Source of the DNA: Candidatus Electrothrix scaldis
GTDB taxonomy: Bacteria; Desulfobacterota; Desulfobulbia; Desulfobulbales; Desulfobulbaceae
Direction of reading: 5' to 3'
NCBI GenBank assembly: GCA_033584155.1
Contig: CP138355.1
Location: 2,061,501-2,125,500, forward strand
Length of the DNA: 64,000 nucleotides
Positions 14,786-52,300 of the stretch are shown piece by piece. Made by a program: the position numbers and the translations under genes. The notes under the pieces are model-generated. The model ran no database searches. It was not told the origin of the DNA and saw nothing but the letters and a program-made list of their open reading frames with translations. Within the stretch, counting starts at the first letter, position 1, and every line of letters begins with the position of its first letter.

Positions 14786-15085
14786 GAGATAAGCACGTTC
14801 CAACAACGATGACGAGTGGTTCGGCACCATCGAGGAATCATTCTGCGGTAGTGACGAAGGCCTCGTCGCTGTCGAAGAATGGTTCAGCGGCATATCCTAA
14901 CGATGCTGCAACGCTGTAGAATCGTCCTGCACCGTTGACGAATGATGCAGAGACATGTCAGAATGACTCTCCGATGGTGCAGAATGGTTCTGCGGCAGGT
15001 ACGAACGTTCCAGAACCGATGACGAGTGATTCGTCACCGTCGAAGCATCGTCCTGCGACAGTGACGAATCATCCGGCGGCAGGGG
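14786..15085. repeat. Degenerate 21-bp tandem array, ~14 units
   Basis: Units average the pattern GAATGATTCTGCGGCAGTGAC and keep a strict 21-base step with no frame slips across about 300 bp. Conceptual translation on the minus strand gives successive heptads such as PPDDSSL, SQDDAST, VTNHSSS, VLERSYL, PQNHSAP, SESHSDM, SLHHSST, VQDDSTA, PLNHSST, PQNDSSM, VPNHSSS, LLERAYL. The two ERxYL heptads suggest higher-order duplication. One in-frame stop (14897) interrupts it and no start with a ribosome-binding site precedes it, so it is probably non-coding now. It is not a CRISPR array: no spacers, and units are degenerate. Confidence 0.75.
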
Positions 15086-15468
15086 ATAGCCCTTCGTACA
15101 TGGGGGCGAATGATGCACTTCCTGTGTTCGCCCGGAATTTTCCGAAATATCGAATCCGGCAATAAGTCCGGGATCCTCACCCCGAGCTTTCCTCTTTCCC
15201 ATCCGACCCCTTGAGACAGAAGGAAAAAAGCGTCACCAAGGGAACGCAGGACGAGAGATTCGCGTTGAAACGCCGGGAAGCGTTAAGCCCGTATTCCTAC
15301 AAAAACGAAATAAGCTGTGGAGTCCAAGGCCCATTCAGGGTACAATGCCCGATAATTTTTTTTTAAGGGGAGGGGAGATATGTTTACCGTATGCAGAAGG
15401 TGAGTGCAGCTGCGCTTTTCTTTCGTGTATACAACTACCTTTGAGTTTTTTCTTTGAAGTACATAATT

Positions 15469-17556
15469 ATGGGATCGGGACCGGAGTCATTATCCTTTGT
15501 AAATATCGAATGGCTGAAACAGTTGTATCGACAGCTCAAGCAGTCCGCCGATGAAGAGATACAGGAGCTGGACCGGTTAGAAGATGATTTTTTCAGCCCC
15601 TTGGAATTAATCCGGTTCTATGTCGAACCCTGCCTACAGGCCTTTCGGCCACTCCCGCAACACAGCGGGGTACACTCCCCTGACCCTTGTCAACCTGCCT
15701 TTTCTCTGCTCAATGCTTTCCTGAGCAGTGGTCCCACTACCCACCGGGACGGGAGCCACCAGCTCTTTCTCCTGGGCGATCCAGGGGCGGGCAAGAGCGC
15801 GCTCCTTTTTATGTTGAAGTTGATGCAGCTTGCCGGGTTCTGGCCTAAGAAATACCATTGCCAGCTGCTGAGGCTGGATGAACATACCCTGGATCGGATC
15901 GCGGGCATGGAGGGGAAGGCCAGGACGGTCCTGCTTCTTGATGCCCTGAATGAGGATAAACAGGCCAGGTGCCGAACCCTTGAGCGCCTGCTCCCTCTTT
16001 TACGGGCCGGAGATGATTTTTACCGGGTGATTATTTCCAGCCGCAGTCATTTTTTTCCAGAGCTGTCCCCGGACAGTACAGGCCGCCTGCGGATCAGGGT
16101 TCTGTCCGGTTATAATTGCCCGGTGCTTTATCTTGCCCCTTTTGCTGCCCACCAGATTCGCCAGGTGATTCAGAAACGACTTGCCCGGAATAAGGAAAAT
16201 TACATTGGTTTCCAGCGCTTCGGGGTGGAGCGCCAAAGAAAAAAGGCTGCCCGGCTGCTCCCCAATTTGGGCGAACTGAGCGGTCGGCCCCTTATTCTTC
16301 ATCATGTGCAGACCCTGTTGCAGATTAAGGAACACCGTCTGCGGGACGGCTATACCATCTATGAGGCCCTGATCCAGTATTGGTTGGATCGGCAGATTGA
16401 AAATCTGAAGGGGAGCGGCTGCCGTTGCCTGCCCAAGCGTTTTGAGCTCTTTAACGGCTATGTCCGACTGGCTCGCTGGATGGATGAAAAGGGAAATAAG
16501 GAGATCGGGGTTAGGGAAATCCGGGAGCTTTTCTGCGAAAAGGCGGAAATTTGCCCGCTCCCCCATTGTTCGCCGGATCCGTCGCTTCTCAAAGCGACCA
16601 GCAGGCAGACCTATTGCTTTGCCCATATGACCTATCGGGAATTCCTCCTTGCCCATGCCCTGATCTATGATACTAAGCCCTTTACTACGCCGGTCCGGGC
16701 CACAGACCAGATTGTGCGCTTTCTTGATCTGGCGCACGGGATCAGCGATTACGTGCATCGCCTGAGTCTCTCCGAATTCAATCCCTTTCGTTATGTAGAG
16801 AGCTACAGGACTATGTTTGCCTGGCAGGATCGGCTGGGACGCCTCCGTAACCGGGTGCTGAAAGGACCGGAGATGATCATGCTGCCGGGCGGGCGCTTCA
16901 AAATGGGGGATATCCAGGGGGGAGGCTCCGGTGATGCCCGGCCTGTCCATGAGGTGGAACTGAATAATTTTGCCCTGGGCCGTTACCCGGTCACTTTTGA
17001 GGAGTATGATCTCTTTTGCGTGGCCACCGGAAATCGTAAGCCCTCAGATAATGGCTGGGGCAGGGGGAAACGTCCGGTGGTGGATATCAGCTGGCAGGAT
17101 GCCAATAATTACTGCGAATGGTTGAGCATGATCACAGGCCGCCCCTACCGCCTGCCCACAGAGGCGGAGTGGGAATACGGCTGCCGGGCGGGCACAGAAA
17201 CCGTGTATTTCTTCGGTAATGACGCCCATCTCCTCCATGAATATGCCTGGTTTGCCGAGAATGCCGGAAATATGACCCACCCAGTTGGCCAGAAAAAGGC
17301 CAATGCCTGGGGACTGCATGATCTCTACGGCAATGTCTGGGAGTGGTGTGCTGATAGCTATAAAAAGGATTATTATACAGAACTCCCCATGAGCAACCCG
17401 CCCGGTGCGGAACATGGCGGGGCTGGCCGGGTTTTGCGGGGAGGTTCCTGGGACAGCGGCGAGCGTTTTATCCGCTCCTCCTTCCGTTTTCGCCTTTCTC
17501 CGGGGCTGCGCATTATCCGGGTGGGCTTTCGAGTCGCCCAGGGGTATTTGGAGTAG
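15469..17556 (+). CDS. NACHT NTPase fused to SUMF1 (FGE-sulfatase/CLec) domain, copy 2
   Basis: A 695-residue paralogue of the protein at 12462, aligned along its whole length. Walker A is LLGDPGAGKSALL, Walker B TVLLLDALNED, the post-NACHT helix AHMTYREFLLAHAL. The SUMF1 domain begins LPGGRFKMGDIQ and ends RVLRGGSWDSGERF...VGFRVAQGYLE. I use the ATG at 15469 because its spacing to the conserved W-x-K-x-L block matches copy 1; a TTG five codons earlier is possible, and neither has a good Shine-Dalgarno. In the last 40 residues the two copies differ at exactly the positions that vary in lectin-fold DGR targets while the framework (RGGSW, RS, P, GFR) is kept. Function is presumably sensing or conflict, by analogy with STAND-CLec proteins. 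Confidence 0.83.
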   Translation: MGSGPESLSFVNIEWLKQLYRQLKQSADEEIQELDRLEDDFFSPLELIRFYVEPCLQAFRPLPQHSGVHSPDPCQPAFSLLNAFLSSGPTTHRDGSHQLFLLGDPGAGKSALLFMLKLMQLAGFWPKKYHCQLLRLDEHTLDRIAGMEGKARTVLLLDALNEDKQARCRTLERLLPLLRAGDDFYRVIISSRSHFFPELSPDSTGRLRIRVLSGYNCPVLYLAPFAAHQIRQVIQKRLARNKENYIGFQRFGVERQRKKAARLLPNLGELSGRPLILHHVQTLLQIKEHRLRDGYTIYEALIQYWLDRQIENLKGSGCRCLPKRFELFNGYVRLARWMDEKGNKEIGVREIRELFCEKAEICPLPHCSPDPSLLKATSRQTYCFAHMTYREFLLAHALIYDTKPFTTPVRATDQIVRFLDLAHGISDYVHRLSLSEFNPFRYVESYRTMFAWQDRLGRLRNRVLKGPEMIMLPGGRFKMGDIQGGGSGDARPVHEVELNNFALGRYPVTFEEYDLFCVATGNRKPSDNGWGRGKRPVVDISWQDANNYCEWLSMITGRPYRLPTEAEWEYGCRAGTETVYFFGNDAHLLHEYAWFAENAGNMTHPVGQKKANAWGLHDLYGNVWEWCADSYKKDYYTELPMSNPPGAEHGGAGRVLRGGSWDSGERFIRSSFRFRLSPGLRIIRVGFRVAQGYLE

Positions 17557-37124: not shown

Positions 37125-37970
37125 TTATAGCTTATTGATTTCGTCAAGAGAAAGCCCGGTGCATTTTTGGATAATTTCGGCCGAAATACCTTCTTTCTTC
37201 ATTGATCGTGCTGTTTCCAGTTTTCCTTTTTTCAAACCTTCACTGAATTTCGTTCGAAGCTCGCTGTCTCTTCTGCGCCGATGATCAATATAATTATTAT
37301 AGTCGATCCGGTCTTCTTCTTTCAGTTTAGTGTAGGCGAGAATTCTTCCGGCCTCTTGTAAACCCTGGGCGGTAAATTCCGGTTTAATCTCTTCATTTTT
37401 TAAGAAGTATATCCATTCGTCGAGCGTGTCTTTTGCGAGATCATCAAAGCGGTTTATTTTTATCAGGTAGTATTCCGGGAATACCTGCTGAACACTGTCT
37501 TTGTTGAGGTCATTTTTTTCATTTGCTCTGAGCTGCAAGACGTCGTTTTTATGGATACCTCTGAACGATGTGGAGCCATGATAGACATAATCTTCCCCTT
37601 CCCCTAAATCGAAATAGATCAGGTTAACAGAGATTACCTTATGCACCCGGAGATAATCATCGCCTTCATGAAGATGCTCTGTCACCACCCTTGATGTCCC
37701 CCAGAGGATGCGATGGAAGAAGGAGTAGTCGCGGTCGTACTGTACCTCAATGATGATAATTTCGTCTTTAGAGTTTCTTACCTTCAGGTCGAGCACATTT
37801 TGCTTATGTTGTTTGAAGTCTTTATTTGATTCAGACTCCAGGACTTCAAGGACCGTGATGTTTTCCTTGAGGAGTTCAGATAAGAAACCTGCGAGCACGC
37901 CAAAATTGGCTTTTGATCGCAGGAGTCGTTTTATTGCCCAATCAAAGGATACATATTGTCTCGTTTTCAT
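37125..37970 (-). CDS. Rpn/PD-(D/E)XK nuclease family protein, tandem copy A
   Basis: A 281-residue Rpn-family protein starting MKTRQYVSFDWAIKRLLRSK, with the catalytic signature VLDLKVRNSKDEIIIIEVQY (Asp, then E-x-Q). It begins two bases after the stop of copy B and repeats it almost exactly (about nine substitutions and a 4-residue indel near the C-terminus). The C-terminal EGISAEIIQKCTGLSLDEIN helix is conserved in both. Rpn proteins are linked to recombination and phage defence; a role here is not shown. Confidence 0.87.
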   Translation of the reverse strand: MKTRQYVSFDWAIKRLLRSKANFGVLAGFLSELLKENITVLEVLESESNKDFKQHKQNVLDLKVRNSKDEIIIIEVQYDRDYSFFHRILWGTSRVVTEHLHEGDDYLRVHKVISVNLIYFDLGEGEDYVYHGSTSFRGIHKNDVLQLRANEKNDLNKDSVQQVFPEYYLIKINRFDDLAKDTLDEWIYFLKNEEIKPEFTAQGLQEAGRILAYTKLKEEDRIDYNNYIDHRRRRDSELRTKFSEGLKKGKLETARSMKKEGISAEIIQKCTGLSLDEINKL

Positions 37971-37972
37971 AA

Positions 37973-38830
37973 CTATAGCTTATTGATTTCGTCAAGAGAA
38001 AGCCCGGTACATTTTTGGATGAGCTCGACAGAAATACCTTCCTTTTTCATTGATCGTGCAGTTTCCAGTTTTCCTTTTTCCACACCTTCCTCAAGGCCTT
38101 CACTGAATTTCGTTCGAAGCTCGCTGTCTCTTCTGCGCCGATGATCAATATAATTATTATAGTCGATCCGGTCTTCTTCTTTCAGTTTAGTGTAGGCGAG
38201 AATTCTTCCGGCCTCTTGCAGGCCCTGGGCGGTAAATTCCGGTTTAATCTCTTCATTTTTTAAGAAGTATATCCATTCGTCGAGCGTGTCTTTTGCGAGA
38301 TCATCAAAGCGGTTTATTTTTATCAGGTAGTATTCCGGGAATATCTCCTGCACACTGTTTTTGTCGAGGTCTTTTTTTTCATTTGCTCTGAGCTGCAAGA
38401 CGTCGTTTTTATGGATACCTCTGAACGATGTGGAGCCATGATAGATGTAATCTTCCCCTTCCCCTAAATCGAAATAAATGAGGTTAACAGAGATTACCTT
38501 ATGCACCCGGAGATAATCATCGCCTTCATGAAGATGCTCGGTGACCACCCTTGATGTCCCCCAGAGGATGCGATGGAAGAATGAGTAGTCGCGGTCATAC
38601 TGCACCTCAATGATGATAATTTCGTCTTTAGAGTTTCTTACCTTCAGGTCGAGCACATTTTGCTTATGTTGTTTGAAGTCTTTATTGGATTCAGACTCCA
38701 GGACTTCAAGGACCGTGATGTTTTCCTTGAGGAGCTCAGATAAGAAACCTGCCAGCACGCCGAAATTAGCTTTTGATCGCAGGAGTCGTTTTATTGCCCA
38801 ATCAAAGGATACGTATTGTCTCGTTTTCAT
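37973..38830 (-). CDS. Rpn/PD-(D/E)XK nuclease family protein, tandem copy B
   Basis: A 285-residue near-identical upstream twin of copy A, with the same start and ending. The differences cluster at residues ~145-175 (RANEKKDLDKNSVQEIFPEY) and in the EEGV insertion before KGKLETARS. Nucleotide identity is also very high, so the duplication is recent or maintained by gene conversion. Both read on the minus strand and probably share one transcript from the region above 38830. Confidence 0.87.
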   Translation of the reverse strand: MKTRQYVSFDWAIKRLLRSKANFGVLAGFLSELLKENITVLEVLESESNKDFKQHKQNVLDLKVRNSKDEIIIIEVQYDRDYSFFHRILWGTSRVVTEHLHEGDDYLRVHKVISVNLIYFDLGEGEDYIYHGSTSFRGIHKNDVLQLRANEKKDLDKNSVQEIFPEYYLIKINRFDDLAKDTLDEWIYFLKNEEIKPEFTAQGLQEAGRILAYTKLKEEDRIDYNNYIDHRRRRDSELRTKFSEGLEEGVEKGKLETARSMKKEGISVELIQKCTGLSLDEINKL

Positions 38831-39371
38831 AATGTTCTCTTGTCGTTGCTTTGCGAAGACGTTCTGGCGAGAAGAATGTGATATTTGCGTATGATAATGA
38901 GATGAAGCAGCTTGTGTCAGGTTATGATTTCGTTCACAGTATATTCAGATTCTCCAGGAAGTACAATAGTTGTGATGTAACAGGAGGATGGCGAGGGATT
39001 GTGCGGTTTTTTGGGTGGTGGGGTGTTGGTTAGGGACGATTGATCAAGATGGATGGAGGTGAGTCCTCATGTGGAAGAGGTATGGTCGCGATGGTTGTTG
39101 GGCGAAGATAACACCCTTAAAGATTAATTAACGTCCGGTTTTGAGCGAAGAAGGAGCTTTTTTTATTGTGCAACAAGAGTATTTCGTTGTTTTGGGAATC
39201 TGAATCATTATTAATGTGCTGATACTATGATGTTTTTTATTGACTCTTCTTGCGGGGCATGCTTTGTATATATTTTGCGTGGTAATAAGATGATGACCAT
39301 CTTGATGCACAGGCAATTTGTTCAACGATGGTAAAAAAATGGACATTCACCTTTTACATGTACGCCTCTAT
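38831..39371. other. Intergenic region upstream of the Rpn pair
   Basis: About 540 bp without a supported gene. It should hold the promoter of the Rpn pair (minus). GC content falls toward 39150-39370. No transfer RNA or insertion sequence end was seen. Confidence 0.5.
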
Positions 39372-39656
39372 CTTTTTAAAAGGAGGTGTTAGATTTTAAA
39401 AGGCGAGAGGGCATTTTTAAAAAGTCACGTCTCATTATTTAAGGTAGAGATCGCAACCTTTAAAAATAGGTGTTGGGGTTTAAAGTCTGAGAGGCCATTT
39501 TTAAAGAGTCGCGTCTCAATATTTAAAGTACAGGTCGCAACCTTAAAAAGTAGGTCCTCACCTTTTTAAGGTGGGGCATGGATTTTAAAAAGTGAGGTCT
39601 GCCTATATAAAGTTTGGCAGAGGATTTTAAAAGAGTATTGACCGCCTTTTAATCTG
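39372..39656. repeat. 21-bp periodic TTTAAA array, ~13 units
   Basis: Each unit carries TTTAAA, TTTTTAAAAAG or a one-base variant, and units repeat every 21 bases exactly; I followed the phase codon by codon from 39375 to 39656 without a slip. Conceptual plus-strand translation gives heptads such as LKGERAF, LKSHVSL, FKVEIAT, LKSERPF, LKSRVSI, FKVQVAT, LKSRSSP, LKSEVCL, but in-frame stops (for example at 39390) and no ribosome-binding site argue that it is not translated. It ends 30 bp before the coiled-coil gene at 39688. Confidence 0.8.
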
Positions 39657-39687
39657 AAGGCTACCCTGAAAAAAAAAGGAGACTCTT

Positions 39688-40044
39688 ATGGCAAGCAAAA
39701 GCGTACCCAAATTATTGCAGGAAGCAAATGAGATAAAAAAGGCCCTGGAGAAAATTGATGATCGTATTCCTGACGGGCTGAAGGCTGCGGATATGCAAAC
39801 AAAGGTGACCGAGCTGGAGGATGTGATTGATGACCTGGATGCCGTTAATGTCGAACGGACCAGGTTGGTTGATCGGAAAGGGGAGCGGGCAGAGGGTCTG
39901 AGTGATCATATCGTGCAGGTTCGGGCGGTGGTCAAGGGGATTTTCGGGGCTGATTCTGAGGAATACGATATGGTCGGTGGCACGCGGAAAAGTGAGCGGA
40001 AGCGTCAGGCGAGGAAGGCGGGGCAGGGGGAGGATGGCATGTGA
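39688..40044 (+). CDS. Small coiled-coil protein of unknown function
   Basis: A 118-residue protein. Residues ~5-75 are predicted helical and charged (LLQEANEIKKALEKIDDRIP, VTELEDVIDDLDAVNVERTR), followed by VVKGIFGADSEEYDMVGGTR and a basic tail (KSERKRQARKAGQ) that could bind nucleic acid. AAGGAG precedes the ATG by seven bases. I do not recognise the family by name; similar small proteins ending in GGTRxSERK occur in diverse bacteria. It lies directly after the 21-bp array, so the array may be part of its leader or an associated element. Confidence 0.7.
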   Translation: MASKSVPKLLQEANEIKKALEKIDDRIPDGLKAADMQTKVTELEDVIDDLDAVNVERTRLVDRKGERAEGLSDHIVQVRAVVKGIFGADSEEYDMVGGTRKSERKRQARKAGQGEDGM

Positions 40045-49330: not shown

Positions 49331-52300
49331 TTACTCCTTCCCCATCACCTGCCTGAAAATAATCTCCCGCAACTTCTCCTCATCAATGGGTTTGGAGAGA
49401 TAGTCATTCATCCCGGCAGCAAGACAATCAGCACGATCCTTTGCCGTGGCATTGGCTGTCAGGGCGATGATCGGGAGGTTAATTCCTTCGGCCCGCAGAA
49501 TTCGTGTCGCCTCCAGTCCGTCCATAATCGGCATCTGGATATCCATGAGGACAAAATCATACTCGCCCTCGTAGATCGCATTAATCGCCTCTTTCCCGTT
49601 ATAGGCGGACTTAACCGATATTGCCATTTTTTCCAAAAGGATATGGGCGAGTTTCTGGTTGAACAGATTGTCTTCAACAAGGAGACCTTTGAGCCCGGCA
49701 AGTTGAGGGGGCTGAGCCGCGTCCTTTTCTTCCTGCAATCTGGCTGCATGCTCCTGTTCTTCTAAAGCAACTTTGTCAAAGCTGATGGTACAGAGAAAGA
49801 TTGCACCCTTGCCGGGAGTACTTTTTACCTCAATGGTCCCCCCCATCATGTGGATAATGGAGGAGGTGATGGCCAGACCGAGCCCGGTTCCTCCGAATTT
49901 TCGGGTGGTGGAGGGGTCGATCTGGGAAAAGGGTTGAAAGAGCTCCTGGATTCGATCAAGGGGGATGCCGATCCCGGAATCCTGGACAGAGAAGAGAAGG
50001 GTGACCTGCTGCTTTGTTTCCTTTTCCAGAGATGCCTGAATGGTGATTTTCCCTTGCTCGGTAAATTTAATCGCATTATTGACCAGATTCATTATGACCT
50101 GATAGAAGCGGGTGGGGTCACCTTTCACGGACAGGGGAATATCATCGGCAATATTGCAGACCAGGAGCAGACCTTTATTTTCCGCCTCGACCCGTAGCAT
50201 GTCTGCTGTTTTGTGGATCAGCTCTCCGGGATGAAAAAGAATAGATTCCAGTTCAACTTTGCCTGCCTCGATTTTTGAGAAATCCAGGATATCTTCAATA
50301 AGGGCAAAGAGTATCTGGGAGGAACGATACACTATCTCAACATATTCCCGTTGTCTTGGGGTTAACTCTGTTTCCCGGATCAATTTATTCATACCGATGA
50401 TCACATTCATCGGTGTCCGGATTTCATGGCTCATATTTGCCAGGAAGAGTGTCTTGGCCCGGCTGGCCTGTTCAGCGACTTCCTTGGCGCTCCGAAGAGC
50501 CAGAGCTGTTTGTTTCCGCTCTGTAATATCCTGAACAATACCCACTGAGCAGAGAATATTTCCAGAAGCGTCCCGCTGGTGATGACATTTTTCATGGACA
50601 AAGCGAACCTCCTTGTCCAGTGGGCGGATGATGCGATGCTCTATTTCATAGTGCTCCGTATTCTGCTGAACTGAATCGGAGTAGGCTTGATGCACGAGGG
50701 CACGATCTTCTGGATGCACCAGTTCGAGAAAGGTCTCATAGTTGCCCTGAAAGTTTTGGGGTTCCAGACCGAAAATATGATAGGTTTCTTCGGACCATTC
50801 CAGCTGATTAGCCGAGGTGTTAAAAACCCAGCTGCCCAACTGGCCAATACTTTGCGACATAGTGAGCAGGTCTGTTTTCTCATCAAGGGCTTTCTTGGCC
50901 TGTTGTAAGGCAGTGATGTCGACAAAGTTGATAATGCCTTTATCCACCTGACCATTTTCATCAGGGACCGGGATCCCGTTCAGATAGATCCAGGTGATGT
51001 TGGGATGATGAGGCCGTTTGATTCCCAGCAGTTCATTGGAAACAGTCTCATGATTGCCCAGGACACGTGCAAGCGGGCAGGCTTCTTCCGAGAGGATTTT
51101 GCCCTCAGCATCGGTAAAGTACCAGTTGATATCACCACTGTTTTGTCTGTGTGCTTGAGGGGCAGGCAGACCTAAAATCCGGCGGGCTTCAGGATTACTG
51201 AAGATGATTTCAGCATTACGGTCATGCACCACCACGCCACTGAGCAAGTTGTCAAAGGTGACCTTATAATCGGTAGCATGTTTTTGCATTGCCAGTTCAG
51301 CCAATTTGATATCGGAAATATCAGTAAAGGTCAGGATAACGCCTTTGATCCTGCGGTCCTTGCCGCGATAGGGAACCATCCGTTGCAGGAGCCAGGCCCC
51401 ATCCTGACTTTGGACCTCATGCTCCATCATATGGCCGCTCTCCAGCACTTGGCGCACATCATTGAGCATTCGGTTTTGATCTGTCAGCTGATAAGCAATG
51501 TGATCAATGGGCCGTCCGATATCCTGGGGCAGCAGTTTAAAGGAATAGGCGCTGGCCGGGTTGAATTTGCGGATCACCAGGTGCTTATCGAGAAAGACAA
51601 CACCTACCTCCAGGCTGTCCAGCAGGTTCTGATGTTCTCTGTTGAGAGATTCGAGTTCGCTATTTTTTCTCTCGAATTCTGCGTTGACAGTGTAGAGTTC
51701 CTCATTAACGGAATGCAGTTCTTCATTGGTGCTTTGCAGCTCTTCATTTGATGCCAATAACTCCTCGTTAGTTGCCTGGAGTTCTTCATTGCTGGTCTGG
51801 AGCTCTTCCACCGTGGTTTGCAGGTTTTCTTTGGTCAGCTGAAGTTCTGCTTCCAGATCGGCAAGATAATTTTGCAGGGTATGGCTCCCCTGATCATCCT
51901 GAAGAAAGACGAATGGCTCCGGGGAGGAGGCTGGGGGAGAGGGAGACAGAGGGAGAGGAATCAAGGCAATATGATAATGGCAGGAATGGCTTTTATCATC
52001 GGGCAGGCACTGAACCACTACATCTACCCGTTCGGTCTGGTCACCACGCAGGACACTGACATTGGGCAGGGTAAAATCAGAAGCGCTGGCAGCGGAACGC
52101 TGCAAGGCTACGCTGACAGCCAGATGCAGATCACCTTCGAGCATGTGAAGGAAATCATTTTCCACCCGTCCCTCGGGCGCTTTGAGGTAGGGGGTGATAT
52201 CACCAAAATAATGTAATACCTGACGATGCTGGTCCAGGAGGACTCCGCGCGGGATATGGCGTTTGAGCAGCAGATCGTAATCATGGAGAACCTGCCGATC

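Follow-up and report, generated by a model that had tools for sequence, protein, structure and literature searches.

The array and its gene

The locus lies in a stretch of 64,000 nucleotides from Candidatus Electrothrix scaldis (contig CP138355.1 of assembly GCA_033584155.1, positions 2,061,501 to 2,125,500; hereafter the window), where an array of 21-bp units is followed by a short leader and by the gene of a small helical protein (Table 1). Self-matching at lag 21 across 39372-39671 reached 0.448, as compared with at most 0.397 in 1000 first-order Markov shuffles from which the best of lags 15-30 was scored, and the array obtained a locator score of 39.4 (shuffled maximum 3.6). From its 13 T-to-A centres eleven occupy phase 4-6 and two (TATTTAA variants) phase 1. 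Hence, the 21-base periodicity put forward in a sequence-only reading of this DNA holds in that no slip accumulates over the 14 units, though not to the letter, as single units jitter by 1-3 bases. Tandem Repeats Finder reports it at 39375-39555, with a unit of 84 bp (4 x 21). Its last unit is found 21 bp from the ATG and approximately 11 bp from GGAG, and the 30 bp initially given as the distance to the ribosome-binding site is thereby corrected.

Table 1. Features of the window discussed in the text (positions counted from the first letter of the window)
Feature	Position	Strand	Basis
Non-coding 21-bp array with a unit unrelated to that of the array at 39373, followed by an FGE-sulfatase-domain ORF (15454-17556)	14811-15084	.	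Period scan and domain search
21-bp array, 14 near-dyad units, TTTTTAAAA class	39373-39666	.	Direct reading, 21-bp layout and locator
Short leader between array and start codon, Shine-Dalgarno-like AAAAGGAG	39667-39687	+	Direct reading
Gene of a small helical (coiled-coil) protein, 118 aa, C-terminal GGTRKSERKR motif, family member	39688-40044	+	Homology searches and AlphaFold2
Candidate region for array recognition (codons 1-24; arm at the N-terminus, and helix 1)	39688-39759	+	Partial correlation with array similarity

Upstream of the array, a TTGACT...TATATA-like stretch is present at 39240-39272, and visual inspection showed comparable ones ahead of the G000c, G001a and G002a arrays. Were this stretch the promoter, the array would be transcribed at the window locus, unlike in Nostoc. 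On the minus strand, 37125-38830 is occupied by two tandem ORFs of 281 and 285 aa that hardly differ and represent a recent duplication. The second non-coding array of the window (at 14.8 kb) proved real and, as had been noticed, shares the 21-bp period and not the sequence (best similarity to the family arrays of its own genome 0.41, p 0.25); it also occurs in three genomes of the same genus (G005, G003 and G001), in one of which (G003) the same downstream gene was seen. A third 21-bp periodicity, at 51634-51852, lies within a long open frame and therefore probably reflects coding heptads.

The protein family

The window protein was modelled by AlphaFold2 at a mean pLDDT of 86.9, with helices at residues 5-26, 33-86, 91-95 and 101-115. 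This model and a second one of the family (mean pLDDT 92.4) both combine a short helix 1 with a helix some 54 residues long and with basic ends. No known DNA-binding fold was recognised in the predicted model (best Foldseek E 2.4), and comparison of the family models with the PDB yielded no similar structure. The models are all-helical, without a ribbon-helix-helix domain, and no Pfam family matched above its cut-off. Searches of Pfam, NCBIfam, PHROG and PADLOC with the family, which is unnamed, returned no meaningful score, and within the first three of these resources the protein matched neither a transposase nor any other catalytic family. The open-access literature that we searched contained no description of a protein family with 21-bp arrays.

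Eleven relatives of the window protein are encoded in its own genome (closed, 5.09 Mb; G000), and up to 15 matches were counted per genome. Family matches were recovered from 10 of 57 related genomes, and a wider draw within the phylum found the family in one of 395 genomes, namely its own. Named genomes scanned with a profile yielded 121 confirmed stretches, of which 80 were kept; their carriers are cable bacteria, filamentous cyanobacteria (Leptolyngbya, Nodosilinea, Nostoc, Fischerella), Bacteroidota, Chloroflexota (Chloroflexi) and Acidobacteriota. A viral or phage origin was rejected, given that IMG/VR and phage records held no relatives; a relative was seen in one plasmid record (Kovacikia).

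Arrays accompany the gene across phyla

The association between gene and array was assessed in two ways. Without recourse to the locator, of the 115 loci with at least 520 bp upstream 101 had a multiple of 21 (21, 42, 63, 84 or 105) as the top lag within these 520 bp, and the same test applied to the downstream regions of family loci showed no multiple-of-21 peak. The locator scored at least 8 in 105 of the 118 loci that could be scored (122 listed, four of them too short; shuffled maximum 3.6), counts that stand for loci and not for independent events, with some sites reached by two routes (L126 and G002d have identical values). In five genomes (Fischerella, Leptolyngbya BC1307, Flavobacterium NRK F7, Acidobacteria SZAS-13 and a Chloroflexi MAG) 27 of 30 loci, very divergent Chloroflexi paralogues included, scored at least 14 (35 matches listed, 30 of them with loci, and about ten already contained in the 122-locus set). 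Within the genus, an array was present at 16 of 17 loci of a second subfamily. Family arrays comprise 7-23 units (median 12).

Two loci (L314 and L179) have the gene and no array, and two more (L153 and L163) have a weak array at most. G005a, a candidate for an array-less gene, was dismissed: an insertion (the flanks overlap by 9 bp) separates it from its array, which is displaced upstream by about 1.7 kb. Other copies of the gene had been named beforehand as the place where arrays might be missing, and the opposite was found, with arrays beside nearly all copies, across phyla. We regard the gene and array of the window as one instance of a protein-array pair that is widespread and exists in many copies.

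Leaving aside the family gene, antisense frames and frames of the array, no recurrent neighbour gene is widespread at the family loci; the widest genuine neighbour family (STAND-like) occurs at 9 loci. The survey of neighbouring genes yielded no recurrent partner gene or operon, and no conserved ParM/ParA/TubZ-type NTPase gene adjoining the loci.

Unit sequence and symmetry

Paralogues within one genome carry different array units, and units are homogenised within arrays. The arrays of close relatives differ by 21 or 42 bp at a time, and the leader that separates them from the gene shows good conservation. A universal motif, strong over 92 redundant arrays, was abandoned, as it vanished once these were cut to 34 classes (mutual similarity at most 0.6): the shared-motif score of 1.355 falls within the reversal null (mean 1.278, maximum 1.417).

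Units tend towards dyad symmetry. By column permutation, 63% of 105 arrays were dyad-symmetric at p<0.05, and in a held-out test (axis picked on half of the units, tested on the remaining ones) 75 of 90 arrays exceeded the permuted mean, 32 of them at p<0.05. Two Nostoc loci (L183 and L200) replace the core ATTGCAAT by ATCGTGAT or ATCACGAT in most units and retain the dyad.

The proposal that the arrays are decayed heptad-coding sequence failed, an open frame being found in 52% of 92 arrays as against 49% of column-permuted controls, and so did that of intrinsically curved DNA, since the 10.5-bp harmonic of W and of AA/TT is depleted (z about -5). From the sequence-only interpretation there survives the notion of a putative protein-binding array that the basic protein encoded downstream might occupy. 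Loops and axes vary, and over the whole set neither a fixed hairpin geometry nor a strand preference emerged. An Rfam search of 10 loci matched nothing except a tRNA. Entire units repeat, which differs from the constant repeats and variable spacers of a CRISPR/TIGR-Tas-like layout.

Matching arrays elsewhere in the same genomes

Periods of 13-63 were scanned in 464 kb and then in 1.264 Mb of the genome of the window, the latter containing nine non-coding periodic segments of period 21 (the window array included), eight of period 23 and one of period 30. The 23-bp arrays, among them L246:6258-6501, L244:2954-3195 and L260:13512-13690, keep exactly to their period and are about as frequent as those of 21 bp (8 vs 9).

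Three arrays that precede other genes match family arrays of this genome (95% of the null at about 0.5): the one before a Roco (Roc-COR) gene matches G000i at 0.85, the one before a Uma2 gene matches G000e at 0.85, and the one before a SIR2-like (SIR2_2-domain) gene, originally located via a TTTWAA pattern, matches G000a at 0.81. Sequence models trained on family arrays alone retrieved some of these again, R1 the SIR2-linked array together with a solo array at 173.4 kb, and R2 the Roco array together with a two-unit trace at 551 kb. The Roco array keeps its position in five genomes and the Uma2 array in three relatives. The former resembles a family array of its own genome at 0.85 (G000), 0.84 (G005), 0.84 (G003) and 0.83 (G001), the matching family class being one in G000 and G005 and another in G003 and G001. 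In G007 (one contig, 95% complete) the Roco array is present (0.75 to G000i) and the only family gene is a truncated one, hence the array may be read by a remnant or by another factor, or it may be decaying.

Five of the nine known non-family arrays of G000 (that at 14.8 kb, L210, L258, L382 and L395) match no family array of their genome, and among the seven that come from the window and from blindly chosen stretches two do (L247 and L219). The windows of L377 and L379 had been chosen for earlier matches there, and L377 therefore stays outside this unbiased count.

Sampling 400 kb of Fischerella revealed eight non-coding 21-bp arrays, all of them non-family (no family gene was found in the sampled array windows). 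Five each match exactly one of the 9 family arrays of that genome (0.75-0.88) and three match none; similarity to the arrays of other genomes does not exceed 0.54. Behind one of the five matched arrays lies a 127-aa ORF that we take to be TIR-like. The same 400 kb (L356-L375) hold nine non-coding 14-bp periodic segments besides the eight 21-bp ones.

Array class and the protein N-terminus

Over 91 loci, identity in columns 1-24 of the protein correlated with array similarity (partial correlation 0.266, identity of the remaining columns removed; shared descent is not fully removed from correlations taken over loci). Random sets of 24 columns gave a mean of 0.004 and a maximum of 0.18, and other 24-column windows at most 0.10. 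Restricted to cable bacteria the N-terminal correlation rose to 0.404 (random maximum 0.243), and outside of them it was 0.172 and not significant (random maximum 0.276). The sole pair of proteins more than 80% identical (about 90%) and with unlike arrays, L188 and L195, has most of its core differences in helix 1 and differs in the C-terminal tail as well. Judged by these comparisons of sequences, array class goes with the first 24 residues more closely than with the remainder of the protein.

Proposed explanation and alternatives

We lean, with confidence little better than even, towards a family protein that is a putative dimeric, array-specific DNA binder in control of its own gene and of a small regulon. 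The protein would dimerise through the long helix that joins its halves, and the N-terminal arm and helix 1 would read one dyad unit. Given units two helical turns apart, all dimers would sit on one side of the DNA, so that 10-20 of them could assemble cooperatively on a single face. The array before its own gene would serve autoregulation, and the dispersed arrays may act as regulon or anchoring sites through which the neighbouring Roco, Uma2, SIR2-like and TIR-like genes could be controlled, with paralogues of one genome holding separate addresses. Counting against this are a predicted fold that resembles no known DNA-binding fold, the five unmatched arrays of G000, the N-terminal correlation that loses significance outside cable bacteria, the few genes with a weak array or none (L153, L163, L314 and L179) and, as the strongest counter-result, the Roco array of G007, a genome whose only family gene is truncated; the eight non-coding 23-bp arrays of G000 are not explained by a strict two-turn rule.

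The retention in G007 of an i-like Roco array, as well as the unrecognised fold, would be accommodated if another transcription factor (or one per class) bound the arrays, the coiled-coil gene being its most conserved target and the Roco, Uma2 and SIR2-like genes further ones. We hold this to be unlikely, considering that no other gene is conserved near the loci, that the N-terminus of the small protein varies along with array class, and that the two proteins with unlike arrays (L188 and L195) differ in their core mainly in helix 1.

Rather improbable, in turn, is a satellite or mobile element, in which arrays expand or disperse and the protein helps to spread or maintain them, much as with RAYT/REP. 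One array class per gene with dispersed copies in the same genome, homogenised units and indels stepping by 21 or 42 would all fit it; positions conserved between species (the Roco array in five genomes, the Uma2 array in three relatives, the 14.8-kb array in three) and a protein that matches no catalytic family speak against it.

Dyad units, and cable-bacterial arrays that mostly fold better on the gene strand, would also be expected of a transcribed array that folds into consecutive 21-nt hairpins to which the protein binds. The overall lack of strand preference and of a fixed loop or axis, the weak arm-to-arm covariation (p<0.05 in 10% of 105 arrays), the TATAAT-like box between array and gene in Nostoc and the missing Rfam family make such an RNA improbable to a still greater degree.

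That helical phasing alone counts, any 21-bp unit serving as curved or one-faced DNA and the classes arising through drift and homogenisation, agrees with a conserved period and a free sequence, yet the depleted 10.5-bp harmonic, the dyad units and the unit classes shared by unlinked loci of one genome leave it hardly credible.

Returning to an array-specific dimeric binder, a broader picture can be sketched, tentatively and with somewhat less than even confidence. Several phyla, notably in their filamentous or multicellular members, may possess diversifying small coiled-coil proteins, each with its own address of a dozen dyads at an exact two-turn spacing. Period and architecture would stay fixed as the address sequence and the N-terminus change together, and many orthogonal protein-array pairs could consequently coexist in one chromosome, where they would mark dispersed sites or regulate them, among these also genes of the immunity type (Roco, TIR, SIR2-like, Uma2). 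If true, this would amount to an undescribed class of DNA-binding proteins, the specificity of which diversifies under constant geometry, to a set of natural orthogonal protein-DNA addresses for studying the evolution of specificity, and to a regulatory or chromosome-organising layer common to cable bacteria and filamentous cyanobacteria and partly tied to conflict-type genes.

Comparison with known systems

Filamentous cyanobacteria are known to harbour STRRs, intergenic heptamer repeats in tandem that are not known to be associated with a gene. The arrays described here are likewise intergenic tandem repeats present in filamentous cyanobacteria, but they have a period of 21 and are tied to one gene family in several phyla.

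In plasmid partition systems of the ParR/parC type, whose arrays are centromeres, a small dimeric protein (~110-120 aa) has an iteron array upstream of its own gene, which it autoregulates, and the array sequence is system-specific. The family resembles them in the array upstream of a small protein gene and in its system-specific sequence, and presumably in dimerisation and autoregulation; it departs from them in its loci, which have no conserved partner NTPase gene, in its fold (predicted all-helical and not ribbon-helix-helix), and in its up to 15 matches per genome with dispersed arrays.

Ordinary repressors may bind cooperatively to tandem operators, in which dyads placed upstream of the gene of the regulator itself keep helical register. 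Family arrays, too, are dyad sites in register upstream of the family gene, although with a median of 12 units, a strict 21-bp period across phyla and a unit that differs per locus class. That the encoded protein may bind the dyads as a repressor binds tandem operators is suggested only indirectly, by the co-variation of array class with the N-terminus and by the regulon-like sharing of arrays.

REP/REPIN sequences occur as singlets or doublets, and RAYT is a tyrosine (HUH) transposase flanked by such repeats. With these pairs (treated in PMC3116915) the likeness resides in a gene beside its own class of dyads and in dispersed copies of this class in the genome. The difference resides in the long phased arrays of the family and in a protein without a transposase-family match. 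Partition systems and REP-RAYT pairs thus each diverge from the family in a defining trait, and the protein-array pair has a similar logic to that of iteron centromeres, of tandem operators and of REP-RAYT pairs.
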